This document shows positions 8,365 to 53,451 of a stretch of 64,000 nucleotides of DNA, piece by piece. The translations under genes and the position numbers were made by a program. The stretch comes from Chlamydoabsidia padenii (lineage: Eukaryota; Mucoromycota; Mucoromycetes; Mucorales; Cunninghamellaceae). The notes under the pieces were generated by a model. The model ran no database searches and was not told where the DNA came from. It worked only from the letters and a program-made list of their open reading frames with translations. The DNA lies in contig JAIWND010000033.1 in the NCBI GenBank assembly GCA_025330725.1, positions 124,001 through 188,000 on the forward strand, given 5' to 3'. Numbering within the stretch: the stretch's first letter is position 1; every line of letters begins with the position of its first letter.

Positions 8365-9175
8365 CTAATCCAAGAGTCCAAGGTGTTTCAAAAAGCCTTC
8401 ACTAGCTCTAGTGACCTGTTTATAGTTATGTTCAAAGCCATCGATAGCACCATAGTAAGGATCGCGAATGATTCGATCCCCTTGAGGGTCAAAGTCACCA
8501 AATAAGGATACCACCGCTTTAGATCCAGCCGGTTTCTTGTGCTGTTATCAAATCAACCCCAAAGAGTAACACGTTTTTATGTCAGTTTCTATACTGTATG
8601 TATTATTTTGTTTATTACCTTTAAATCTTCCAGATTGGATTCATCCATACACAAGATATAATCGAATTCTTCAAAATGTCTATCGATAACCTAAACAATA
8701 AAGATGATGAATGTTAAAACAGGTGTGGATAGTGGTAAGCCAATGTTCTTTACCTTTTGTGCACGATGATTCACAGGTACATTGTGTTGTTTGCAAGTAG
8801 CCGCACTTCGACTATCTGGCTTTTCACCTACCTTTTTTTTTTTTAAGAAAGAGAGAGAGAGAGAGAGATCATGTTTAGTATAAGAGTAAGCAGCACTCCT
8901 TCCCCCCTCCCTCTTTTTCCCCTTCTTACATGATACCCTGCAGTCCCTGCCGAATCAATCTTGGTAAAATGATCAGTTAGTTGGTGTTGTTTGACTGTGT
9001 GAGCAAAGACAGCTTCAGCCATGGGTGAGCGACAAATGTTCCCTAACAATGCAAGTTTGAACTAATCCATTAATACTGCATCCTTCCCCCCCCCTACTAA
9101 TTTATCTTTTCCTTTTTCTTCCAACTTACCCAAACAAACAAAAAGGACACTGATCTTGGCAGTATTATCCACCAT
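8365..9175 (-). CDS. LTP1: Low-molecular-weight protein tyrosine phosphatase
   Basis: There are five exons: 9175-9130, 9042-8930, 8831-8754, 8690-8619 and 8541-8365 (486 nt, 161 aa), the usual length for the family. The catalytic P-loop C-x5-R-S is VCLGNICRSP, split by the first intron after CL. Exon 3 carries GEKPDSRSA, exon 4 the DYILCMDESN segment, and the last exon the conserved RIIRDPYYG, whose Asp is the general acid. These are cytosolic enzymes that dephosphorylate phosphotyrosine, and in several organisms low-molecular-weight substrates. All catalytic residues are present, so the gene looks functional. A GCGGGATTTGAAT motif lies about 80 bp upstream. The next gene upstream is divergent. 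Confidence 0.93.
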
Positions 9176-14596: not shown

Positions 14597-17500
14597 CTAT
14601 TGAGCCAAAGCGACAGCCACACTATAAGCACCACTATGACTAATAGACACATTGATTTCCTTGATACCAGCAGATTCAGCGAGGGACTTGGCCTTGCCAG
14701 CTAATTGCACTTGAGGGGCACCGGTAGATTCGTCCGCCTTGATTTCGATTTCATTCAAAGGAGCAGCAGCACCATCAGAAGGAATACCACCATAAGAAGA
14801 GATAGCCTTGAAGACAGCTTCCTTTGCAGACCATCGACCAGTAAAGCTTGCTTGAGGATCAGGGCGCGAAGCACAATAAGAGATTTCAGCAGGGGTAAAG
14901 TTGCGCTTTACAAAGGTATCATTGTCAACATTCACAGAGGATGTCAATTCCACATCGACACCAACACCCTTCTTGCCAGCTTGTTGTTCGGTCAGAGATA
15001 ACAATACTTGTCGGGTAGCTTCAGCGTCACCAGAGGAGATAGCACTGGCATTGGCAGACTTGGCATCAAAGGTCCATGTCTTCTTTTCCTTGGAGTATTG
15101 AGCACGGGCATTAGGGTTGAGGTACACAGTATGTTCCAATTCGTCGCTGTAAGGAGGAGCATCCTTCACTTGAATAAAGTCGCTAACACCAGTTAAAGAG
15201 TCATGGAGGTATCGGTAAGCCTTGGCATAACGTTGAGCATTACGAGCCTTGTAATTGTTAAAGTCGGATTCTTCCAAAGCAGCAAGGACATAATCAGGAT
15301 GGATAATAAGGATTTCACCACCAGCTTGACCAAAACCAAAGGACTTGAGTAAACCGGCCTTGAGACCATCAGTTTGGATAGATCGAGATGGGTACACAAT
15401 GTAGTCGAATTCCTTGAGCACTTCATCCACATTGTCGGCATTTCGGTTACCGGGGATAAGACCACTGAGTAAACATTGAATCATACCGTTTGCCATCCAT
15501 GAAGCAGCAGGACCCTTGGGATGACCAGTCAAGTACTTTTGAGTGATAGCAAGAAGAGCATTACCCTTGGATCGGCCGAGATGCTTGAGTTGAGTGTTCA
15601 ATACACGAGATTCGTTCTTGTCGTTAGCCTTGGTTGAAGTACCATGGAAGGAGGCGACATTGATATCATCAATAGTCAAACCATACACAGCCAAAGCACC
15701 ACGAAGAGGAGAGATGGTAGGGTCTTGTTGGTAAAAGTTGTGACTCCAAGTAGAGAATGCTTCCTTTTCTTGTCGAGAGGCTTCCTTGTTGATAAAGTCG
15801 CTACGTTCTTGTAACCAAGCTTGTTCTTCGGATACATCCAATTCACCAGAGGCCTTGAGTTCATCCAATTCTTCACGCAAGTTGTCGTATTCAGCTTCCA
15901 ACCATTGCTTGATTTGGGCACGGCGAGACTTGAGTTGACGGGCACGGTACTTGAAGTTGAGGAGAGGAGAAGTACGCTTGCCAGATTGTTCACGAGCAGT
16001 AGTCAAGATACCAGCACCAGGAGCGGGCACAGATCGACCTTCCTTGTCAGTAGCAGTGTTGGTCAGAGCAATAATACCATAGATAGGAGCACCAATTTCA
16101 ATAGCAGTGGCAGCAGTCATCAAGATGTGGTTAGCAGCACCGTGCGATTCCATGAAACCGCTTCGAGTGGTAGTAGCAGGGCGAGACATTTCAGAAGGAG
16201 TACGACCATGAGCAAGTTCATCAACAGTATTGGAGGTGGCCTTCATATTTGCGAATTCATAGCTGGATTCTTCGGTAATATCTTCGGTGGCACCAGCAAT
16301 CATAATCTTGGCTTTTCCAGTGAGAATACTATCCACAGCCAATTCGACAGAGACAGCAGATGTAGCACAAGCATTGACAGGAGTTCTAATAGGGCCAGAG
16401 GCAGACAAGAGAAGAAGATTAACCCAAGCAGGCATGGTGTTGATGAAAGATTCTTGCAAGATATCCTTTTGCACAGGCTTGTCGAGGAGACGATCACGGA
16501 AGAGACCACGTTGAGCTTGTTGACCACCCACACCAGAGCCAGTAGTGTTACCAATTTCAGACACATGCACGTACTTGAAGAATTCATAAGGATCAGTGAT
16601 ACCACAAGAGACGAAGGCTTCCACAGTAGAGACAATGTTGAAGAGAGTGACAATATCCACTTGATCGATGATATCCTTTGGCACACCATAACGAGCAGCA
16701 TCCCAGCCAGTAGGAACTTGACCAGCCACCAAACGATCGAATCGGAGCGCCTTGGGGACATACAATGTAGCACCCTTCTTCAAAACGACAACCCATTCTT
16801 CAGGAGCAGTTTCATAAACATCAGCCTTGTCACCTTGTTGCATCTTGAAGTTTTGAGCTTCTTCTTGAGAGCAGGCGAAGGGTTCCAAGTCGTGATCAAC
16901 CATAATTTCTTGCATAAGCATCTTCTTGTTGGGATCATAGCCATCCATAACAGAGGGATCTAATAAACCAAAAAAAAAAAAAAAAGAGCATGAGTACAAC
17001 ATTGTTTTCTTTTTTCTTTAGCATATAGGAAGGATATACTTACCGACGAAGCGAATACCACTGTGTTCCAAGATTTGTTTTTCGTATTTGGACTTGATAT
17101 CTTTGTCTTGTACAGGTTCATTCGTCGTGGCATCAACCCAACCAGAGTAATGAGTGCCATTCTTGAGATTACCATGATGGTGCTTGATGTAACCCATAAT
17201 CCAAGACATTTCAATACAACCTTCCAAAGAGAATTCACCAGTAGCTTCCATTTCCCACCGAGTACGAGCGTTACCCCAAGGAGATACTTCACCAAAACCA
17301 GCCACGACCACCACCTTTTCGAGATCCAACATTCCTTTAAGATGAGACAAGTGCTTGTAGTTGTCATATGGCTTGAGTTCAGGGAAATCAAACTTCATAT
17401 TGGCACGAGGAGTAATCTTGTGAGTCATGTACTTGCGGTCAGCTTCATTACCATTAACAGTTATGAAGTCAAGGGAGAATTCGTAAGCCACGGCACCACG

Positions 17501-20500
17501 AATTTCAGCAGTTTCCTTGATTTCTTGTCGCAATTTGTTTGTAGCTTCTTGAAGATTAGGAATGTATTGGAATCCACCATTAAGATCAGCCCACACAGGT
17601 TCGTTTTGACAAAGTTCGACAATGCTAGGATGCATAAGACCAAGAATGTTGAATGACATTTCAGTAGCAGAGAATGTACGGATACCAAGAGCTTCCATAC
17701 CTTCAGCAACCATGTTGTTAGGGCTCATGAGGCCAGTGCCACGAGTCCATCTAAAAGCGAAGAAATTTTGTCAGTATTAAAAAAAAAAAAAAAAAAGAGA
17801 AAGTAAAAAATTAAACATCCGACTTACCCAATAACAGCACCAGTGATGAGCAAGTAGCTAGACCAATCTTCAGAGTACCAACGAGAGAAGAGAGTTTCGA
17901 GAGAAATCTTGGATTCACTGTATAAACCATCAGAACCAAAGTTACCATGATTGGGAGACAAAGGCAAAATGACTTGAGCAGGACGAGTGTCAGATCCAAT
18001 ACTTTGCTTGTGTTTCTTGACACTACCCAAAAGACGGAGCAAGTTGGTCAACATCATACGGTGAGCCAATTCAGATTTAGAGTCAATATCGTCAATTTGT
18101 CGTCCATTTTCAGGCATAGCAGCGAAGGGAACCACATAGTCCAAATCCCAACCGAGACCCTTGGGATCATAGATATAATCCATAAGAGCTTCGACATCTT
18201 GTTTGGAGCCTTGGTTGAAGGGCACCACCACCAATTCAGAGCCACGGGAGCCAAATGCTTGATAGATAGATTGGAAGTATTCGGTAACAGATTTGCTAAA
18301 GCGAGATGTAGTCACCACAACCTTGGCACCACCAGAGACAAGACCCTTGAGAATTTCAGAGCCAATTGAGCCCTTACCAGCACCAGTAAGCAAGACACAT
18401 TTGTGAGCAAAAGTAATACCTTCAGTAGCGACTTCATTGAGGACATCCAAGTAAGTAGCAGTCAAACGGTTACTGAATTCCCAACCACTAGGATCGTTCA
18501 CATTCTTTCTCTTAAGATGAAGGAATGGAATAGTTTCAGATTTGGCAGAGCGTTCAGCAACACGTTTACGTTCAGCAGTACGACCAGTAGAGGACAAGCG
18601 ACGTTGACGAGCTCTGTTTTCCTTGACAATAGTGTTGGACATGGACATGGCGCGCAAAACATCACCATACAAATCGCGGATCGCAAGCTTGGTAGTCTTC
18701 TTCATCTTGTTTTGGTTGCGGATAATCTTGTAGAGACGACCCAAGTTTTGTTGCACCTTGAGACGGTTAGAGTATTCAGAGATCTTGGAACCAGCAGCCA
18801 TATCCTTGACATAGTCGGAGAACTTGCGGCATCCAGGGCGAGGCACTTCAGCGTACTTGATATCACCCTTTTTGGTAATAGTGGTGCTTGGTCCAGTAGG
18901 GAAGTTGACTGTCAAAAAAAAAAAAAAAAAAAAAAAAAAGGGAATTAGCAATGCATTGACTTTGACACAAAACCAGATATTACCATCCTTGTAAACAGGG
19001 TTTTCAGCAAGTACTTCCACACAGTTTTCAATCAAAGCTTGACCGAATTCCTTGGCCAATCGGTAAGTTTCACCCTTGTCACCAGCACAGTTTTCCACAT
19101 TGTAACGCATATAATCCACGAGTTGAGGGTAGGCGCGGTTCATGATACCCAAGCATTGAGCTGTCACTTCACGATCCACGATAGCCAATTTACCAAAGAT
19201 AATAGCATACCACATTTCGAGAGCATCTTGACGAACCCAGTTCCAGTAAGAATCATAGCGACGAGCCTTGAGAGGAGAGAAAGCGGGAGCAATACCTTCA
19301 GCATAAGTATCACCGTGTTCAGCAAGCCATTGATCCAATTCAGCTTGTAATTTGAGGGTAGTGGTCTTTTCTTGTTCGTAGAGCTTGTGGCCATCACGGA
19401 GATCCTTTTGCAAGTAATGAGCATACAAGTTGAGTTGTTGATAGATAAGAGCATCTTGTTTGGCCTTCATAGCATCAAATTCTTCACTGTTGATCATGGC
19501 CACAGCACCACCAGCAGCGCCACCAGCACCAGCACCAGATCCACCAGCAGAGAGGGTTACACCAGCCTTCTTTGCATAAGCTTGTGTGACAGAGTCTAAC
19601 CAAGACTTGGCTTCGGCTTCGGCACCGAGACGGCTAGCAGGTTCCATAGTAAGACCCATCAACAACACACCATCCACACGACCAGAGCCCAAACCGTAGG
19701 TAGTAGAGAGATAAGATTTGGCATTGGCCAAAGTGAAACCACCAGGCATCTTCGCACCAATCATCTTCGCCACAAGAGAGCTTGTATGTTTTCCGAGAGA
19801 GCCAGAGAAGCTACCATCCAAAGAGGCACCGAGTTCATCGAGCGGAGTTTCTTCGGCCTTTTCAGGTACAGCATTGTTAAATTCTTTTTGAAGATCACCG
19901 AGAATTTCGTTTTGCATGGTTGATTTACCGCCCACCAAATCCTTGATAGCCTTGGACAAAGGAATTTCGTCGACAGATTTCTTCAACTTTTGAGCAATGA
20001 CAACATGAATCACTTCGGTTGCAGTTACAGGCACATCACTAACCCCCCCAAAAAAAATCAGCATACATATAACCATGTCCCCCTCTTTCTTCTTCTTTTT
20101 TCTTACCTGACAGGTGCGGCAGGACCAGCAGATGCAACAGGAGCAGCAGCCACAGGAGCAGCCACAGGAGCAGCGGCAGCGGCAGCAGGAGCAGGAGATC
20201 CAGAGGCAGCAGCAGGTACTTCAGCTTCTTCTTCGGCATTTTCGAATTCGTAGTAGATTTCTTGAGAGTTCTTGGCAATACACAAGTTTTGACGGCGGTT
20301 GCTTAAAGCGTCATCGTAAGCTTGGTACTTGAGGTTGAGAGTGCGAGTAGCCATGCCGCTGAGAGTAGGAGAGGGACCAACTTCAATGAGACGTTCGATT
20401 CGGAAGTTCTTGAAGAGTTGATCTTGAGTTTCGATCCAACGGACAGGAGAGGCAAATTGATAAGCAAGCAATTCCACCAAGATGATGTAACCCAGACGTT

Positions 20501-23500
20501 GTTGTTGAGCAGGAGTCACATATTTGTCGTCAGTCCAATTCTTGAGCACCTTGGCCAAACGAGGACTAGAGGTCAGGTTGTATACGTTTTCGATATAGCT
20601 CTTCTTGGTGCTGAAGGGTTGAGCAGTCAAGTTAGGAATGTACTTGGAAGATAATTGAGCCACGTCAATGTCGGATGGATTGAACTTCTTGGCCAAGTAG
20701 CTACGGAAGGGAGCAACACCGCTAAGCAAGAAGGAAGAGTGGAAGGGCACATCAATACCAGGAAGAGGAACAGTAGCATGACCACGTTCGAGCTTGATAC
20801 GGCCTTGAGCTTCCTTTGCACGAGTCTTTTCCAAGACACCATCGATGATTTCAGACAAATGTTTCTTCACATCTTCAAGAGGCATTGTTTCCATCAGTTC
20901 CTTCAAATCAATACCAGACACCTTGATGTAGTTCAAGACGTTAGTGAGCACATCCAAGTTGGGAATGGAGCCAGCTGCCACATATTGCCAGTTTTCAACG
21001 TTAAAGTTGACGATTTCCAGCACATCACCGCTGATACGAGCGATCGAGTCCACAACATATCGTAAAGCAGTATCGTTGAATGACTTGGACACACGAGCAG
21101 GATTGACAGCAGCCATACCATAATTAGATCGACCTTCTGAATCACGTTGCACAGCCGATTGCATAGTCATACCACGGTAGAAGACAACATCCACCAAAGA
21201 TTCCAAAGGAAGCACATCACCGACGGACGCCAAAGCAGCATATTCACCCAGAGAGTGACCGGCGAAAGCACAGTTGCCTTGGATAAGTTCCTTAGATCGC
21301 ATATCTTCAAAGGCAGCCTTTTCCAACAAAGTCAATGCAGGTTGAGTGAATTGAGTGGCAGACAAGAGACCATTGGGAGCTTGGAAGGTGTAGAAGGAGG
21401 TACGTTCGTTAATAGTAGGGAACAAGGGCAAAGTCTTGACGGAGCCATCGCTTTCCACCACATCGTAAGTCATACTCATGTAGTTTTGACGAATTCTGTT
21501 ACCACGAGGACCACCAAAGTACACAGTCTTTTCTTTGGGGTTGGATCGGACGATTTCCAAGATAGAGAAGCCATAGTTTTCGTTAAAGTGCTTGTCGGCG
21601 CGATCCCAGATTTCCTTGGCCACGCTGGAGGTGTTGTAAAGAGCCATACCCATACCTTGTTCTTGAGAGCCTTGACCTGTGAATACATAAGCAGTGACAG
21701 GTTGTTCCACTTCAGCAGTACCAACAACCACCTTTTCGTTGTTTTGGTTGATGGTTTCGATTTGGATGATCTTGCGGCCATTCTTCATACCAGTGTGAGA
21801 GAGCTTGGTTTCAAGACGGTCAGAAGGCAGAACCATACCCATGAAATGCACATTGTAGGCCACCACACGTCGAGGAACATTGTCGGCAGCAAAGATTTCC
21901 ACAAACTTGCGAGTAGAAGCGCTGGTCCACATACCGTGAGTGATAGTACCAGGAAGCACAGCAAGATCGGCAAAGTAAGGGTTCACATGGATAGGGTTGT
22001 AATCACCAGACACATTAGCATAAGGTTCGTTGGAAGCAGGCGCATGGACCACAGAAGAGTAGATCGATTGAGCAGGCATGACAGAGTAACCACCATTTTC
22101 AAAGAAGTGAGCTTGCTCGATTTCTTGTCCGGTACGCTTGAGGTATTCGATCACAGGGTTACCATGACTTTCATCAGCTTCGTAAACGACATCGGCAACC
22201 TTGACGAATTCCTTTGTAGACACCTTCATATCGACAGTACCGGTGGTCTTTACACTGGCAAACACGCGCTTGTTGAGGTAGCGGAGTTCGGTGGTGAGAC
22301 GGAATACAAGAGAAGTACCAGGGGCGAGTTCATAGTTGTCTAATTCCTCGGTCCAATTGATCCATTCCTTTGACTTGAGCACAGCAATATCCTTGACAGA
22401 TTGAAGGTTAAGGTTCATAGGAGTTTCCACCTTGCGTTCAAAGGTGTGTTCAAAGTCGGTAAAGTTGCCACGATACAAGAACTGACTGGTGACTTCCATC
22501 ACAGCCTTTCCTTCGCGAGCAATCACACCCTTGACTTCAATGAGCTTGCCAGAGTCGTTGTTGATAATAGCATTAATCTTGGCATAAGTGTCGACAACAT
22601 CACCAACAGAGAGCAGATCACCACCTTCGAGGAGACGGAAGCCGTTGGACAAGTGCACCAATTTCAAAAGATCACCATCGATTTCACGAGGGAAGATAGC
22701 CTTGATGATAGCCTTCCAACCAACAACAATAGCAAAGTCCATAGGAGCATAGACCATCTTTTGTCCTCGATCAACATAAACTTCAGCTTGGTTTCCGACA
22801 GCTTGGCAGAATTCCTTGATTTCGGTAGACTTGACAGTTTCACCCATACCAATAAGTTTTTCAGTAACAGGAATAGATAAGAAGTCATCGTTTGCATCGA
22901 CACCGAACCAAAGTTTCCAGTAAAACTCCTTGATGCGGTTGTTGCGTCCCTGAAAAAAAAAAGTTAGTATAACATGTCATAATTTTGTATTTCTTTTCTA
23001 ATACTTACATCCATAACTTCATGAATAGGAGCATAGCCAAAATCGGGCTTGTAGAGGAAGTGTAACTTCAATGGCACAAAGTCATTATCACGTTTTTCAT
23101 ACAGAGTAACATCAATGGTACCGTTGTTGTTTGTGGCTTCGACAGAGGTAACATAGTCTTCAGATTTACCAGAAGCACTCCATAAGCGTTTGTCTTGGAC
23201 CTTGAGAGAGACAATTTGACCTTGAGCATTAGATGACACAGTCACTTTTTGACCAGCACGAGGACGCAAGATACGGGCCAGAGGATTGTCAGAGAATTTC
23301 TTGCCCTGAACCACAAATGGAGAAGTAATCAAAGCACGCAACCAGTTGAAGGAGGCACCAGAGATAGTTTGGAACCAATCATCATCTTGAGGAAGGGCCG
23401 CATCGCTGTCACCAGTTAAATACACCCGTTCATTGTCGGTAGAAGCATCGGAAGCAATGAGTTTGTTACCAGAGTTGGAGACACCACCGAGATATTCGAT

Positions 23501-26500
23501 TTCGGGGATAGATGATTCGTCGTTGTTGTAGTATTTTTCCTTCAAACTTGCAATGTGGCTAGCATAGATATCACCGAGGATTTCACCGACAGGTTGATCA
23601 ACACGAGTAGCATACTTGGCAGCAACAGGACCATGGAGAATACAAGTACGTTGGACATCTTGATCGACAACAGCGCCAAGATCTTCGGATTGCCACAAAG
23701 AGTCCTTCTTGAACCACACGTCAAAGTCTTTGTCCATCACAGGAATGAAGGGCACAGGCTTTTGACCACGGCGTTGGCAAAGGGAGACAAAGTGGAGGAC
23801 ATCTTCGGAGGTCAAAAGTTGAGAATCGGCATCAGGGAATTGAGAGAGGAATTCAGCAACAAAATCATGAGGATGATCCAATTGGGTGAAAGATTGAAGA
23901 GTAGAGACAGCTTCCACCTTTGAGAATCGTTCTTCAATACGGCGCAAAAAGTCACCAACGAGGTTACGAAGAGAGATATCGATCCATCGGCGTTCATGCT
24001 TGATATACAACAGTTCCACCATGCGGTCCACCACTTCAGTATAGGTCATTTCTTGAAGGTCCACGACATTACCGCTCTTCTTCTTACCAAACCACACCTT
24101 TTGGAAGTCAGCATTGAGACGCTTGATGATGTAATCCTTCTTGGCGAGTAAAGCAGGGAGGCGTTTGTCACGAGGCAAGTTGAAGATAGTTTCGTCCAAT
24201 TCCTTCCAGAGACGCACACCACGAGTAGCAACTTTGTGAATAGGTTCACCGAGTTCAGATCGGACAGTCATGATACCACCAGCGGGACCCTTGTATGTCT
24301 TTTCCCAATCTTCATCATCCACACCGGGAGCATCCACCATGGCTTGTTTAACAGCTTCAGACGCAAGACCTTCTTTAGATACCATCATACGAGAACCAAA
24401 CATCACACCATCAAAAGGCATGGGAGGATAATCAAATTTGGCGGCCCATTCACCAGTAAGGTAAGGGAGAGTATCATCAGCACCACCAAAACCAGACCCA
24501 GCGACGAGGACAATGTTTTCTTGACGACGAATAGAGGCGTAGGTTTCAAGAATAGGTTGGTGAACATCTTCAAAGCTGTGATGACCACCAGCACGACCAC
24601 CAGTCCATTGCATGATGATAGGCATGGTAGGATTGGCCGCAGCAATAGAGACGACCTAAAAAAAGAGACAAATGTATGAGTTGATGCCCGTTTTTTTTTT
24701 TTTTTTTTTTGCTACCCCACCCCCATATTTTATTATTATTATTATTTACCTGACGAATGGTTTCCACACTTCCGGGTTTGAATGCAACGTGGCGAATACC
24801 GGCGGCCTTCAAATTGGAAATGACTTCATTGGCGACATCCAAAGAAGGAACACCAGCAGCAATACAGATACCTTCCATGGGAAGACCTTCTTTACGCATG
24901 ACTTGGACCAGAGGGTATTGGAAGCCCCATTGACGTACATTCAAAAAGAGAATGTTCAGAGTAACACCTTCACCAGGACGAGTCAAGTTCATAATTTTGT
25001 CGACCTTGCCACGGAGAGCTTTTTCGTTATAGTGACCACCACCGGCCAATTCAACATGATAGCCAGCGTTCATGACAGCAGAGACAAACTTTTCGCTGAC
25101 AGTGGAAGGGGTCATACCGGCAACCATCAATGGAGGTTTACCCAACAAACGTGACATACGAGTATCCACGTGAATGCGTCCGTTACTACATAGTACAATA
25201 GAAGTTTTTTTTTAGTATGTGATACCATTGTCGGCGATTGAATTTCATGAGGCCAATGCGTTTTTTTTTTTTTTTTTTGCCTTACCTTGTAGTCTTGACG
25301 AGTTTAGGTTGGAAGACCTTGGCCCAGTTTTGGGAGTATGTAACAGCACGTAAATCAGCATCAAAGAGATCGGCCTTGTAAGACAGATCACGATTACCAC
25401 CTTCTAAAGCACCAGCCAATAATACTTGAGCCCCGGTACCTTCCTTATTGCGGTAAGTCAAACCACCAACACCCGAAGTTCCACCAGGTCCAAAGTCGAT
25501 AATGTGAGTCAAATCCTTTGGAGCAATTGCCTTTTCCCAATGCACATGTTCAGAGTAAATCAAAGACACCAAATCAGTTGTTAATGATGCAGATGATCGA
25601 AGATCTTTGCCTATAAAGATTCAGTCAAGTTGATAAAAAAAAAAAAGTGATGAGTTTCTTTTTGTGGTCAAAATTGAATCTCCACAACCCCAACGGCCCC
25701 AAATAAAAACAAGTCCCCCCTTTCCCCAATATAAAAAACATATTACTTACCAGTATCAGTAGCATAAACAGGAATCTTCAAATCCTTGGCATCATGTTGC
25801 AATTGGTAACGTTCAATATCACGCATCAAAGTTTCAACAGCAGGTTGCAAGTAAGAGCTGTGGAATGGAGCAGTGATAGGCAAGAATCGAGATGAGAATT
25901 TGATTTTGCGTTGAGAGAATGGTACCCGAGATTGATCTAAACCAGTAGGAGCCTTGAGTTTACGAAGACTAAGGTTAAGACCATAAAGAGATTGAGGGGG
26001 ACCAGTACACACAAAGGATCGAGGGCCGTTGAGAAGAGTGATTTCAATTTGTCGATCAGGTGCCAAATGCGCATTGGTAGCTTCCAAATGCTTCAATACT
26101 TGAGATTCACGTAAACCAGTAACAGCCAACATAGGAGTAGGAGTACCTTCATTGTTGTTGAGAGAGTCTTCCAAAACAGTGGGGTTCAAGGTGGTAGGAG
26201 GGAAAGCTTGTTGAGCCCTAGTACCCATCCAGAATAAGAAACCCAATGCCTTTTCGGTGTTTACCAAGAATTCATCATAAGTGGTGGAAGAAGAGATGAC
26301 AACAGAAGAGATGACACCTTGACTATGACCAGTGGTACCTATAAGTTATAAACAAAAACAAAAAAGTGGATTAGTAACCAATTTCCTTTGTCTCCTATTC
26401 CCCTCCCCCTCCTCCTTCCGCCATTTAAAAGCATATTTTTGTTTTGTTTTGTTTTAACCTTACCACTAATCAATTCCCTAATGTCACCAGGAGTACGATC

Positions 26501-31233: not shown

Positions 31234-32495
31234 ATGTCCGAAGTCAGAAGAAAACTTGTCATTGTTGGTGATGGGGCTTGTGGAAGTAAGTGGACGATGA
31301 ACAGACAAATTGATAAAAGATGAAAAGGAACTAACTAATTCACCTTCTTTTTTTTAAAAATAGAGTATGGGAAAACAACGACTTTATATGCGTAAAAGGG
31401 AAAACGAAGCACTAACTAATGACTTTTTATTACATTCTTATTCTTGGATTGTTTTTTGATTTTTTTAAGGGTAAGTATCACTGGGAAAAAAACAGGCTGA
31501 ACGGAAACTACAATAGTGGTACCAAGAAACTAACTCCTTCTTCTTCTTCCATATATTTTATTACTATTAGACTTGTTTGCTTATGGTCTTCTCCAAAGGT
31601 GCCTTCCCTGAAGTAAGTGGTTGTTGTTAATGATTGCGGGGTGTTTGACTTTCTACCTACATATTATATCTTTCTATATAGCGGGGACTAACACACTTTT
31701 GTTTATATGTATATAGTTCTACGTGCCTACTGTATTTGAAAACTATGTCACCGACGTTGAAGTGGATGGAAAACATGTAGAATTGGCTCTCTGGGATACA
31801 GCTGGTAAGTTACATCTATCAACCCACATAACATAAACTAATCCTCTCTTTCTTTCTAGGCCAAGAAGATTATGATCGACTACGCCCATTGTCATACCCT
31901 GATTCCAATGTTATCTTGATCTGTTTTGCTGTGGATTCTCCCGATTCCTTGGACAATGTTCAGGAAAAGGTAAATAGATAATGATGATAATAGTGGTGAA
32001 AAACGGAAATGCATACTTGTTGGACTCACTTAATCTCTCTCTCTCTCGCTCTCTTAATAGTGGATCTCCGAAGTATTACACTTTTGTCAAGGGTTACCTA
32101 TCTTGTTGGTTGGTTGCAAGAAGGACTTGCGAAATGACCCCGGTACTATTGAAGAACTTCGACGAAACTCACAGAGACCTGTTGCCTATGAAGAAGTAAG
32201 TCTAACAAAAAAAGAAGAAGATAACAAACTTATGCTCTCTTTCTCTCTCTCTCTCTCTATTATCTCACATAGGGCACTGCCGTTGCACAAAGAATCGAAG
32301 CCTACAAATACTTGGTAAGTCAGTCTAAACCATGAAGTAACTTGATCCATTTTATCTTATGGTTTGTTAAATGTATAATAGGAATGCTCGGCCAAGACCG
32401 GTGAAGGTGTCCGTGAAGTATTTGAACATGCTACCAGGGCCGCTTTACGAGTCACCAGGAAAACCTCAAGTAAAAGCAAATGCTCTATTTTGTAG
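31234..32495 (+). CDS. RHO1: RHO1-type small GTPase with two single-nucleotide exons
   Basis: The proposed exons are 31234-31285, 31364 (A), 31470 (G), 31571-31612, 31717-31804, 31860-31969, 32061-32195, 32273-32314 and 32382-32495 (585 nt, 194 aa, the normal RHO1 length). Motifs are the P-loop GDGACGKT, switch [10 protein letters not shown], switch [21 protein letters not shown], a GCKKDL base-recognition motif (usually NKKD or TKxD in related proteins), ECSAK, and C-terminal CSIL, a CAAX box predicted to be geranylgeranylated. In fungi RHO1 controls beta-glucan synthase, protein kinase C and actin polarity at the plasma membrane. Exon 1 ends in the first base of the P-loop Lys codon and the next large exon starts with the following Thr codon. 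The two missing bases lie between good splice sites. Alternatives are a 28-nt plus 1-nt exon pair, which would insert nine residues into the P-loop, or a damaged allele. Confidence 0.85.
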
Positions 32496-48209: not shown

Positions 48210-51200
48210 ATGACAAAGAAAGGCCTTAATCTAACTCAAGATGATCTGGATACTGCTGAATCGTTTAATGTAGCTCCTGAACAAATCGAAAACACCATGA
48301 ATTCTGGAAGGGATTTTGATTACTTGTCAAGATATATTGATGCCGAATTTTTAGAAGCCTCCCCTGATGCACTTGCGAAGTCTATTGAACAACTGGAAAT
48401 GGAACGCAAAGAAAAGGTGGATGAAGATGAAACGCCTGAAATGACCGATGAAGAAAAACAAGCACGACAACTCAGTCCACGGGAATATCAAAACGAACTC
48501 TATCAAAAGGCACTCAAGGAAAATGTTATTGCTGTGCTTCATACTGGTAGTGGCAAAACCTTGATCGCGGTGATGCTAATCAAACAGATGGCTCTACAAG
48601 AAAAGCTTGATCGTTTGGTTCGACACAAGGTAAGAATCATACACAATGGGATCGTCTGCCAACTCACCTTACTCTTCTTCTTTTTTATTATTTTGAATAG
48701 ACGAAACTGACCTTCTTCTTGGTGGATCGTGTGCCTCTGGTATTCCAACAGGCTGGAGTGATACGTGCCAACTGCGATGTAGAAGTACAACATATGTGTG
48801 GTCAAATGGATGTGGATCATTGGTCTGAAAAGAAATGGAAAACCCTGTTTGAAGAAGTTGATGTTTGTGTGATGACGGCTCAAATCTTCTTGGACATCTT
48901 ACGTCATGGTTTTGTACGAATGGATAACGTAAGTAATCATAATGATTATATCAAGTCGGAAGCATATACTCATGTTTTTTTTTTTTTTTTTATGGATATA
49001 GGTAAACCTGCTTATCTTTGACGAATGCCATCACGCTATTAAACGACACCCATACAATGTGGTTATGCGGGAATTCTATGATACATGCCCTGAATTGGAA
49101 CGACCTCGGATCTTTGGAATGACAGCCTCTCCGTTGAACTCAAAGGCCAAAGTTCAGTATAGTGCAACGTAAGTCCCACTCCACACATTAATGATGGTAG
49201 CATGAATTAACGATATAATCAATTCACTTAATTAGGCAACTGGAACAAAACCTTTGTAGTCTGATCTATACTGCTACCAATCAAGAATTATTGACTGCCG
49301 TCCTCAAACCACCTATCGAACTCACTATTCCTTTTAAACACCATCCTCTCCTTATTGACACTCCTTTAACTGCAACTATACGACAAAAAATTGGCCACAT
49401 TGAACGATATCATCTTTGCTTCAAAAGAGTGACACAAGTATTGAATGATCTAGGACCTTGGTGCTCTGACAGACTATGGGAATACATGCTGATGGAACTT
49501 GATCGAAAATTAAAGGGGGGCTACCAAGGTATGGATACGGAATATCTGCTGGCAGAAGACAGGGCTTTACAAGAATGCACAGAACTGGTGGAAACTAACA
49601 AGTTGATCGAATATCCTGAAATCAACACTGAATGGTTTACTCCCAAGATGATAAGGCTATTCCAAATCATGAAGACTTATACTGTTATGGCTCGTGATGA
49701 TCGATTTTGTGGTATCATCTTTGTGGAAACCCGACATACTGCCAAAGCTATCCAACTCGCACTTGAAGCTAATCGTGATTTACATGGCTGCTATAAATGT
49801 GATATACTTATTGGACATGGTGGCCGCGAAGAAGGTGACATGAATATGGGATTCCGTGAACAAAATCGCATCATTGAAAAGTTCAGAAGGGGGGATCTTA
49901 ATCTGCTGATTGCGACTAATGTGGCTGAAGAAGGTTTGGATATACAACCTTGTAATGTGGTGATTAGGTAAATATCTCGTGGAAAAAAAAGTGCTTACAT
50001 ATATCATTAAACTAACCCTTCTTCCTTTTTATTAGATTTGACTTTATGACCACTCCAATCGGGTACATTCAGTCCCGTGGCCGGGCAAGACGGGAAAATT
50101 CCAAATTTATCATCATGATGGAAAAAGACAACAACAACCAACAGGGGCAACTACAACAATTTAGGGACTCTGAAGTAGCGATGAAGGCATTCTGTCAAGA
50201 ACTACCGGCGGAACGAAATGTGGCTCTCAAGTTTGCGACTGACCCTGGCGATCGACCATATGACCCTGAAGAAGATGACGACGAAATGTATATGGAGGAT
50301 GCTTACGTGGTGGAATCAACTCAGGCAACGGTGACCAGACAATCTGCTGTGCCTTTGCTTCATCGATACTGTGGTTCGCTTCCTTCTGACAGGTTTACAG
50401 CTCTCCAACCTGCTTTTGAAATCGCTCAAACACTAAACGAAGGATTCACTTGTACGGTCCGATTACCATCCAATGCCGCTGTACGCGAAATCACCTCCAA
50501 AGTCTGCCGGACAAAGATTCAAGCAAAAAAGGTGGCAGCTGTCGAATGTTGCAAGGCGCTTCATCTCAAGAAGGCTCTGACTGATCATCTTCTTCCTATC
50601 AACTACAAGCGGGAACTTCTTGGTAATATGGAACCTGTATTGGATGAAAATGGCATGGTGGTGGGTAGTCGTCGGCGGAAGGCAATGTACGAAAAACGAA
50701 TCCCTTCCTTCTGGAAACGGCCTGTACCGTATACTTTGGATGGTGACGAAGAAGAAGACGGTGATGAAGGAGCAGGCGATAACGAAAACAAGGAAACAGA
50801 TGTGGATCTACTGAAAGCAAGGAAGGCGCCAACGAAGAACATTGCTAATGGAGATCAGGACGACACTCATCAAATTTCGACGATATCTACCAATGGTGAC
50901 GGTATTACAAGCAATGACGACTCTTCCAACAATTTGATAGACTTTGAAGTCGAAACAACCAACAATGACATCAATGCAAACACTCTCCAGAATCAAGTAG
51001 AACATGATACATCAATGGTCACCGTACAAGAGAAAGCAAAGGTGGAACGAATGGAAATCGATGAAATTCCCCTGGAGGACACGGATGGGCCATTTGACTT
51101 GCACGTATCTCTGATTGAATTCAATGTGGACGGAGGCGCTATTGATGGTATTAAACTCCGACGTTTATGCATGATGACATGGAAACCATTCCCTGAATTG

Positions 51201-53451
51201 CCTGAAATGGAACTCAACATCCGTGGCTCTCCCTTTATCGTGCAAGTACGACCCTTCGATCTTCCTATCTCTGTTGATAAAGAAGCTATCATGGTTCTCA
51301 AAGACTTTAATATCACCATGGCGTCTGCAATCACCAACAAGGAATTCTCCTGTTTGCTCGGTGACTTTCCCTATTTTTTGGCTCCATTGGTATTAGGTAG
51401 TAAATATGATACAACGCCAACCTCAATCTATGATCAATTTGATTGGCCAGCAATACATCAAGCGGTTGGAAAAACATTATCACCATTGGAATTCGACAAG
51501 AACAACGACAATGACTTTGACGACGTAATTATTGTGGACTATGCAAACCGAAGTCAGCGATACTTTATCAACCGAGTTTGCCATGAACTGACACCTTCAT
51601 CACCCATTGTAACTTCTGACGCGGTTCGTGAACTTGGATATGACAGCATGGCGGACTACTATCAAAAGGCGTTATTGGTGGAAGTGACAAACTGGGAACA
51701 ACCGATCCTCAACGTGCGCAAGATATCCAAGGTAATGAATTACTTGTCTCCATCTACGGTGGTAGAACCTATTATTCGGAAATCAACAGCTGCTTATGTG
51801 ATACCTGAATTCTGTCAACGATACTACATCAGTGCCAGTGTCTTCCAAAGTTGGATGGTGATTCCTTCAGTAATGACTCGTCTGGATGCCTTTTTGTCTT
51901 CACACGATGCTAGAAAACGGTATGATTTATTGATCGAAGACAACTTGATGCTCGAAGCTTATACCACGCCATCAGCCAATATGAAAATGGACTATGAACG
52001 TTTGGAAACTCTTGGTGGTAAGTCGGATAAAAAGGTATTCGGGGATAAAGCATAACTAACTTTTTTTTTCATATATATAACCTAGATTCATTCTTAAAGT
52101 TTGTGGCCACCTGTCGATTGTATACAAATTACCCTGCAAACGATGAAGGTGAACTCCATTGCCAACGTATTCGTGTGATTTGTAACAGAGCGTTGTACCG
52201 GGCGGCAAAGCGACTCAAGATCTACCGATATGTGACCAGTCATACCTTTAACCGACGACATTGGCGACCTCATGGATTTATTGCGACAACCGATACAGAA
52301 GATACATTGAAAGATGCACGTCAACACACTCTATCCGATAAAACCCTGGCTGATATTGTTGAAGCATCTTTGGGTGCGGCATTCTTAAGCGGGGGTCTAG
52401 AAGCTGGATTACGGTGTGCCATTGCGATGCAAATTCCATTTGATGATATCGAAACATGGTCCGACTTTTATCCCACCTATTTGTCTACTCGTAGTACACT
52501 ACCTCCTCGGGCTGAAGTCACTGCATTACGATCGGTCAACATGATGCGAGTTCAACAAATCTGCAATTATGAATTCAGTAATGGTTTATTGGTGGTAGAA
52601 GCCTTGACACACGCCAGTCTTCCCAACTCTACGGCGCCATGCTACCAACGACTGGAATTCTTAGGTGATGCGATTCTGGACTTTTTGGTCATCCAATATC
52701 TCTACAACAAATATCCTGATGCGGATCCAGGAACTATAACTGACCTAAAAGACTCCTGTGTCAACAATCATGTCCTTGGTATAGTGTGTATTGAAAATGG
52801 CCTCCACAAGCAAATCATCCACTTCTCTTCCATCCTCATCCGATCCATCGAAGAAACTGTCAAGGAAATAAAAACGATCAAGGAAAACAAACAAGATATT
52901 GGCGAATACTGGCTCAGCTTGAATATACCAAAGGTGCTATCTGATGTGGTGGAAAGTATGCTAGGTGCCGTCTTTGTAGATGGTCAGTTCCACTGGGAAC
53001 CTGTTCAACGCTTGTTTGAACACTGGTTGGTGCCTTTACTGGATGTCCATGTTACTCCCGAATTGGTCCAAGTTCATCCTGTCAATCGATTAGTCACCAA
53101 ATTACAACGCCTTGGGTGTGAAGCTTTTATGCTCAGGTAAACTACACGTACATAAATGATATCTTTTAATTTTTTTCTCCCCCTTCTCTTCCAAATAGAA
53201 ACGTTACCACTTCTTCGACTGGTGCAACTGGGCAAAAGTGTGTCATCTTTTTGCATGAAAAAGCATTTGCTTCTGGTGCTTCGGACAATATCAAGGTGGC
53301 AAGAAGACAAGCAGCTGAAAGAGCATTGGATCGAATCGCGGAGGAACCAGGTCTACTTGAAGCCGTTTGTAACTGTGGGGTGATCCGAGAACAGAAGGTG
53401 GCCAAACTGCTTATTGAAGAAGACCATAAGGAAGATGACGTCGGCTTTTGA
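48210..53451 (+). CDS. DCL: Dicer-like ribonuclease, 1610 aa
   Basis: There are seven exons: 48210-48629, 48701-48928, 49002-49168, 49236-49967, 50036-52017, 52086-53136 and 53199-53451 (4833 nt). Domains in order are a DExD/H helicase (HTGSGKT at about 111-117, FDECHHA at about 222-228, GMTASPLN), helicase C ([27 protein letters not shown]), a Dicer dimerisation fold (about 623-705, [11 protein letters not shown]), an acidic linker, a PAZ-like region ([26 protein letters not shown]), RNase IIIa ([28 protein letters not shown]), RNase IIIb ([27 protein letters not shown]) and a C-terminal double-stranded RNA-binding domain. Dicer cuts double-stranded RNA to 21-25-nt guides for Argonaute. Both catalytic Glu/Asp sets are present, so the enzyme should be active. 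It follows the histidine kinase gene on the same strand. The paralogue class (Dcl1 or Dcl2) cannot be decided here. Confidence 0.95.

Follow-up and report, generated by a model that had tools for sequence, protein, structure and literature searches.

How can a RHO1 gene supply its invariant P-loop lysine when the bases of that codon lie scattered over an interval which, removed as a single intron, puts the protein out of frame? This question is raised by the plus-strand gene at 31234-32495 of the window, the 64-kb stretch of DNA analysed here, in which a gap of 285 nt separates GGA-A from ACT. A preliminary description of the locus had proposed that the gap contains three introns and two consecutive exons of one nucleotide each, both within the same lysine codon.

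Results

Structure of the RHO1 gene

Joining nine exons between 31234 and 32495 gave a 194-amino-acid product ending in CSIL. Exon 1 (31234-31285) closes with an A that is the first base of the P-loop lysine codon, and is followed by an intron of 78 nt (31286-31363; GTAAGT at 31286, CTAAC at 31331, TAG at 31361-31363), a single A at 31364 providing the second base, an intron of 105 nt (31365-31469; GTATGG at 31365, CTAAC at 31412, AAG at 31467-31469), a single G at 31470 providing the third base, and an intron of 100 nt (31471-31570; GTAAGT at 31471, CTAAC at 31530, TAG at 31568-31570). Exon 4 (31571-31612) begins with ACT, the threonine of GKT; exons 5 (31717-31804), 6 (31860-31969), 7 (32061-32195), 8 (32273-32314) and 9 (32382-32495) complete the gene on the same strand, the last of them encoding CSIL before the stop.

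Read in this way, the gap yields GDGACGKTCLL in frame, with a lysine codon AAG composed of the A of exon 1, the A at 31364 and the G at 31470, and both single bases are needed for the RHO1 frame and for the conserved lysine of the P-loop (GDGACGKT). Both are flanked by AG and GT (TAG-A-GTATGG and AAG-G-GTAAGT), and each of the three introns has its own donor, acceptor and CTAAC (29, 54 and 37 by the branch-point distance measure). All bases, splice signals and coordinates named in the preliminary description were found where it had placed them, and its introns of 78, 105 and 100 nt and its 194-residue RHO1 were reproduced by the joining of the exons. We consider it very probable that the 285-nt interval consists of three complete U2-type introns and two real one-nucleotide exons.

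The same codon in the RHO1 paralogs

A whole-genome protein search identified, besides the window gene, one RHO1-type gene on contig C71 (L032) and another on contig C56 (L033). Both have the anatomy of the window gene, GGA A and ACT enclosing three introns, with a single A after the first intron and a single G or A after the second. The A-A-R chain was thus present in each of the three RHO1 genes that were detected, on three contigs, and this recurrence speaks, at the level of sequence, for the proposal of two consecutive one-nucleotide exons in one lysine codon. The first single base is A in both paralogs, the second is A in the C71 gene, and the lysine codon accordingly reads AAG in the window, AAA in C71 and AAG in C56, a synonymous change inside a one-nucleotide exon. 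The GTATGG donor of the second window intron recurs in the C56 gene.

The three proteins are 90-95% identical over the first 182 codons, with differences at 39 of 70 (window-C71), 30 of 76 (window-C56) and 34 of 74 (C71-C56) four-fold sites, and all three genes reach an intact CaaX end. Intron lengths at the lysine are 78/105/100 nt in the window, 93/154/95 nt in C71 and 120/107/150 nt in C56. Measured against letter shuffles, seven of the nine comparisons between matching introns gave a z of 2.2 or below, the third introns being above shuffle level in window-C56 (z 7.7) and C71-C56 (z 5.6). A predicted structure that is preserved despite changed introns, and in which the base shifts only synonymously, is the trace expected of a functional codon. 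The RHO1 cluster looks old, since it is common to all three paralogs and CDC42 carries a related series of 2-nt exons.

Similar chains in other gene families

In two CDC42 paralogs (C2 and C29), the same P-loop lysine as in RHO1 is reached through two successive 2-nt exons, the order GTT GG, AA, AA, AC[CT] giving GGA AAA AC[CT]. Two alpha-tubulin paralogs (C15 and C51) carry three micro-exons of 1, 1 and 2 nt (AGA G, C, G or T, TG, T TGT) that lead to RACCLLSNTT, and their alanine codons, GCG and GCT, differ synonymously within a 1-nt exon. Alpha-tubulin readings with a single 1-nt exon were rejected; they give RACLLSNT, RGCLLSNT or RVCLLSNT, one residue short of the homologs seen. Two copies of an exchanger gene on contig C12 (L045, C12:1449478-1452569; L046, C12:1847345-1850436) read GGG, A, A, T GCC, in which the asparagine of GNAAEH comes from A, A and T. 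Residues 7-123 of the spliced exchanger piece match positions 208-324 of the calcium/proton exchanger model TIGR00378 with 152.6 bits, a score below the whole-protein cut-off of 211.15 and obtained with a partial protein. L045 and L046 are almost identical and lie about 398 kb apart, the gene having been duplicated either recently in the genome or in the assembly.

The other Rho-family P-loops inspected in the genome have a single intron and no micro-exon, at GG/A AAA in L036, at G/GG AAA in L037 and at GDG/A in L038-L040, which by eye we take to be of Rac type. RHO1 and CDC42 have two intron positions in common, after the first base of the lysine codon and after the codon itself, while a position inside the preceding glycine is common to CDC42 and L036. 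Given single introns at several nearby P-loop positions in L036-L040, this motif looks like an intron hot spot in the Rho family. As predicted from sequence, micro-exon chains span four or more gene families of the genome.

Splice signals across the nine genes

We tallied the signals of 29 introns and 20 micro-exons in nine genes (three RHO1, two CDC42, two alpha-tubulin and two exchanger genes). Donors were GT in 28 introns and GC in one, and the acceptor was AG in all 29. Branch-point candidates of the form YTRAY were present in 27 of the 29 introns, with CTAAC in 18; YTRAY was not found in intron 1 of the C71 RHO1 or in intron 4 of the C15 tubulin, and in intron 2 of the C71 RHO1 the sole plausible candidate lies 102 nt from the acceptor. 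GTAAGT stands at 17 of the 20 donors directly downstream of a micro-exon, and is no peculiarity of these exons, since it is also found at four of the five later donors of the window RHO1. Recursive AG-GT sites with a zero-length exon were absent, one or two coding bases being left at each of the 20 micro-exons.

Inspected by hand in the nine genes, removal of the upstream intron did not place consistently better exonic bases before the next donor. To see whether the introns of a chain could be recent copies of each other, as in introner or tandem intron duplication, they were compared within each chain; against simple letter shuffles, a p of 0.02 or less was reached in nine of 33 cases, with the highest z (12.1) between introns 2 and 3 of the C56 RHO1; we suspect that CT repeats lie behind this similarity.

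Alternative readings of the gaps

All gaps were parsed with GT or GC donor patterns, introns no shorter than 45 nt and at most two internal exons, each of up to 120 nt. The window gap gave 22 parses, three of which were open and in frame: the two single bases, a 26-nt exon, and a 28-nt exon combined with the single G. The latter two insert 8 or 9 residues into the P-loop, and the 26-nt exon replaces the lysine. The micro-exon parse was the sole open, in-frame one in the C71 RHO1 (9 parses), the C2 CDC42 (24 parses) and the C29 CDC42 (7 parses); other open, in-frame parses numbered 2 in the window RHO1, 12 in the C56 RHO1, 2 in the exchanger, and 16 and 7 in the alpha-tubulins of C15 and C51.

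Use of the 28-nt exon (31364-31391) together with the G at 31470 is open and in frame in the window gene and would add nine residues to the P-loop, and its insert reads GKTTTLY. This second P-loop-like string, which the start of intron 2 happens to encode, is probably due to chance, as the C71 RHO1 has no matching parse. The 28-nt exon is without a counterpart there, the C56 gene has a different set of parses, with the insertion in the P-loop the Pfam Ras score is 160.2 bits, compared with 175.9 bits for the form with two single bases, and the parse still requires a 1-nt exon; we therefore rate it as very improbable. A single intron of 283 nt, cut two bases early so that the terminal AG of TAG-ACT is kept as the end of the lysine codon, is likewise hard to credit. 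The gap does end in TAG-ACT in all three RHO1 genes, where A plus AG would also make lysine, but such an intron leaves the AG-A-GT and AG-R-GT sites common to the three paralogs unexplained, and an early cut made by hand at the other loci throws CDC42 and alpha-tubulin out of frame and turns the asparagine of the exchanger into serine. Cleavage ahead of the AG is not known to us from any spliceosome.

A gap of two bases in one gene alone would resemble an error, yet the reading of the missing AG as an assembly fault or the mark of a pseudogene has to account for a gap of the same kind, resolved in the same way, in three RHO1 genes on separate contigs, all continuing to an intact CaaX end, and for comparable gaps and solutions in three further gene families, which leaves it with an almost negligible probability. 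Nested introns of the stwintron type, in which a splice element of one intron is broken by another and the order of excision is obligatory, occur in fungi (PMC5639578), and consecutive excision is likely here as well; nevertheless, donor and acceptor, the two elements inspected, are unbroken and contiguous in all 29 introns of the nine genes, and we find this arrangement highly unlikely. The reading with two one-nucleotide exons is thus the one retained below.

Chance occurrence of the chain was estimated with dinucleotide shuffles. For the window gap, 44 of 20,000 shuffles contained an AG-A-GT...AG-[A/G]-GT chain whose introns measured 45 nt or more, and none did when the internal donors had to be good ones (G[TC]A[AT]G). 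With good donors and the required bases, the nine gaps pooled gave two chains in 180,000 shuffles; chains with any GT donor (for CDC42 also GC) appeared 44, 119, 456, 40, 40, 5, 2, 4 and 2 times per 20,000 shuffles in the nine gaps, of which the two exchanger copies are not independent of each other.

A lenient two-micro-exon pattern matched twice in the 64-kb window, at RHO1 and at 8733/8885. The pattern is therefore no proof by itself, and it is the RHO1 paralogs that decide. The match at 8733 and 8885 (plus strand, AG-NN-GTAAG...AG-N-GTAAG) lies antisense to exons of a minus-strand gene, by eye presumably a low-molecular-weight phosphatase, and is probably a chance arrangement.

Elsewhere in the window, a row of long minus-strand open reading frames at 14597-24625 carries fungal fatty acid synthase domains, with helical, meander, dehydratase and acyl transferase domains at 20103-24625 and ketoacyl synthase and ACPS domains at 14597-17002. 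A Dicer-like gene on the plus strand (50046-53140) has Dicer dimerisation, PAZ and RNase III domains.

Genome scans

The 34.2-Mb genome was scanned with patterns for single micro-exons and for double chains. One single micro-exon pattern gave two matches, the exchanger copies, and none in the control, and a second gave one match (the C51 tubulin) and two in the control. A relaxed version showed no excess (nine matches, two of them the exchanger copies, versus 11 in the control), nor did a further scan (12 versus 42), although five of its 12 matches were micro-exon genes (both exchangers, both tubulins and the C29 CDC42). Taken alone, the single micro-exon scans are uninformative.

The double-chain scans returned 15 rows, compared with six in the control. 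Nine rows corresponded to seven of the nine micro-exon genes, among which the window and C56 RHO1 genes were matched solely by the pattern written for them and count as positive controls rather than independent finds. RHO1 on C71 and CDC42 on C2 fell outside the patterns, the reasons being a long intron and a GC donor. The remaining six rows, in five genes (C5, C89, C30 twice, C1 and C12:206830), were rejected as chains, having been judged by eye to be longer exons of the usual kind, with AG-N(N)-GTAAGT or -GTATG at their ends. Within reach of strict patterns, micro-exon chains are rare in the genome; further cases are possible beyond them.

Gene models in relatives

Among the named relatives listed, the nearest alpha-tubulins were those of Chlamydoabsidia padenii (96%) and Absidia glauca (95%), which makes an Absidia-like member of the Mucorales the probable source of the genome. 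RACCLLSNTT, as the micro-exons predict, was found in one of 24 fungal alpha-tubulins compared, taken from a list of 120, namely that of Chlamydoabsidia padenii (P0202); 22 of the 24 have V, L or I after RA, with C as the next residue. The Absidia glauca alpha-tubulin model (P0203) is garbled at exactly the micro-exon site: GDLAKCTYPVSSHRTHPPIISHSCLLSNTTA. A search with the RHO1 tail placed another Absidia glauca protein (P0241) at the top among the fungi listed; this model has 171 residues and starts with MVFSKGSFPES, whose methionine corresponds to the one four codons past the gap in the window RHO1. The simplest reading of these two models is that the gene finder applied to Absidia glauca may have been defeated by the same micro-exons. 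RHO1 of Halteromyces radiatus (P0034) is annotated with an intact GKT, which is compatible with the presence or the absence of the chain.

Discussion

The positions, the signals, the reading frame and the conservation among paralogs, including its synonymous change, are direct observations. We infer from them that the chain is actually spliced, in an order and from an origin discussed below. More broadly, it is likely that an Absidia-like lineage of the Mucorales evolved clusters of tandem introns with one or two bases between them, which interrupt or border single codons of RHO1, CDC42, alpha-tubulin and a Ca2+/H+ exchanger, with codons assembled from three exons.

Under this reading, the mature RHO1 mRNA would read GGA-A-A-G-ACT and so supply the invariant P-loop lysine. 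Each acceptor in the chain would lie a single base from the donor of the following intron, which makes exon definition or simultaneous recognition unlikely; with neighbouring sites overlapping, a spliceosome able to process such exons very probably works by intron definition and takes the introns out in order. The likeliest route would be that the introns leave one after another, each excision joining a single base to an exon of normal size and thereby opening the next junction for use. As to the origin of the clusters, our preferred guess is the insertion of new introns beside old junctions.

Isolated exons of one nucleotide have been described before. Nuclear cases are APC11 in Arabidopsis and VPS55 in land plants (PMC4674806, PMC8831610), which also have one base between AG and GT, are essential for the frame and were overlooked by annotation; the VPS55 donor is given as GTRAGT (PMC4674806, PMC8831610). 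As described, they have one such exon per gene, whereas here there would be two within one codon and up to three micro-exons consecutively. The one-nucleotide exon of Fusarium CYP621A (AG-G-GT), confirmed by reads according to PMC12940212, is likewise fungal, lies in the codon of a conserved motif and was detected through a phase mismatch (PMC12940212), but it is a single 1-nt exon, in contrast to the tandem 1-nt and 2-nt exons in four families of the Mucorales genome studied here. A plant peptidase M1 gene has two neighbouring micro-exons of 5 and 12 nt (PMC8831610, PMC11096116), which are far longer and do not split a codon over three exons. Mitochondrial single-nucleotide exons in fungal rnl and placozoan cox1 (PMC12308204, PMC5436844; with reference entries on the topic in PMC8208691) likewise place one base between two introns; these introns belong to group II or group I and are not spliceosomal, and there is one such exon per site. 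Stwintrons resemble the present chains in their back-to-back intronic units and consecutive removal (PMC5639578), with the difference that their internal intron splits a splice element, while here the elements are contiguous and a coding base stands between the introns.

In the open-access literature searched, we recognised no case of consecutive exons of one or two nucleotides, which is in line with the view of the preliminary description that a pair of them in succession would be without precedent.

Gene finders can fail at such chains, and the RHO1 and alpha-tubulin models of Absidia glauca appear to lose or garble coding sequence. If the reading is true, spliceosomal exons may be as small as one base and may follow one another directly, and a series of two or three exons of 1-2 nt each would test the lower limit of exon size directly. 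It would also point to a mechanism of intron gain aimed at or beside existing splice junctions, and to splicing that is obligatorily one by one. RHO1, CDC42 and tubulin are core genes, so that the fidelity of this splicing must be high. The nine genes constitute a comparative series for the order in which introns are removed and for the way in which new introns settle beside old ones.
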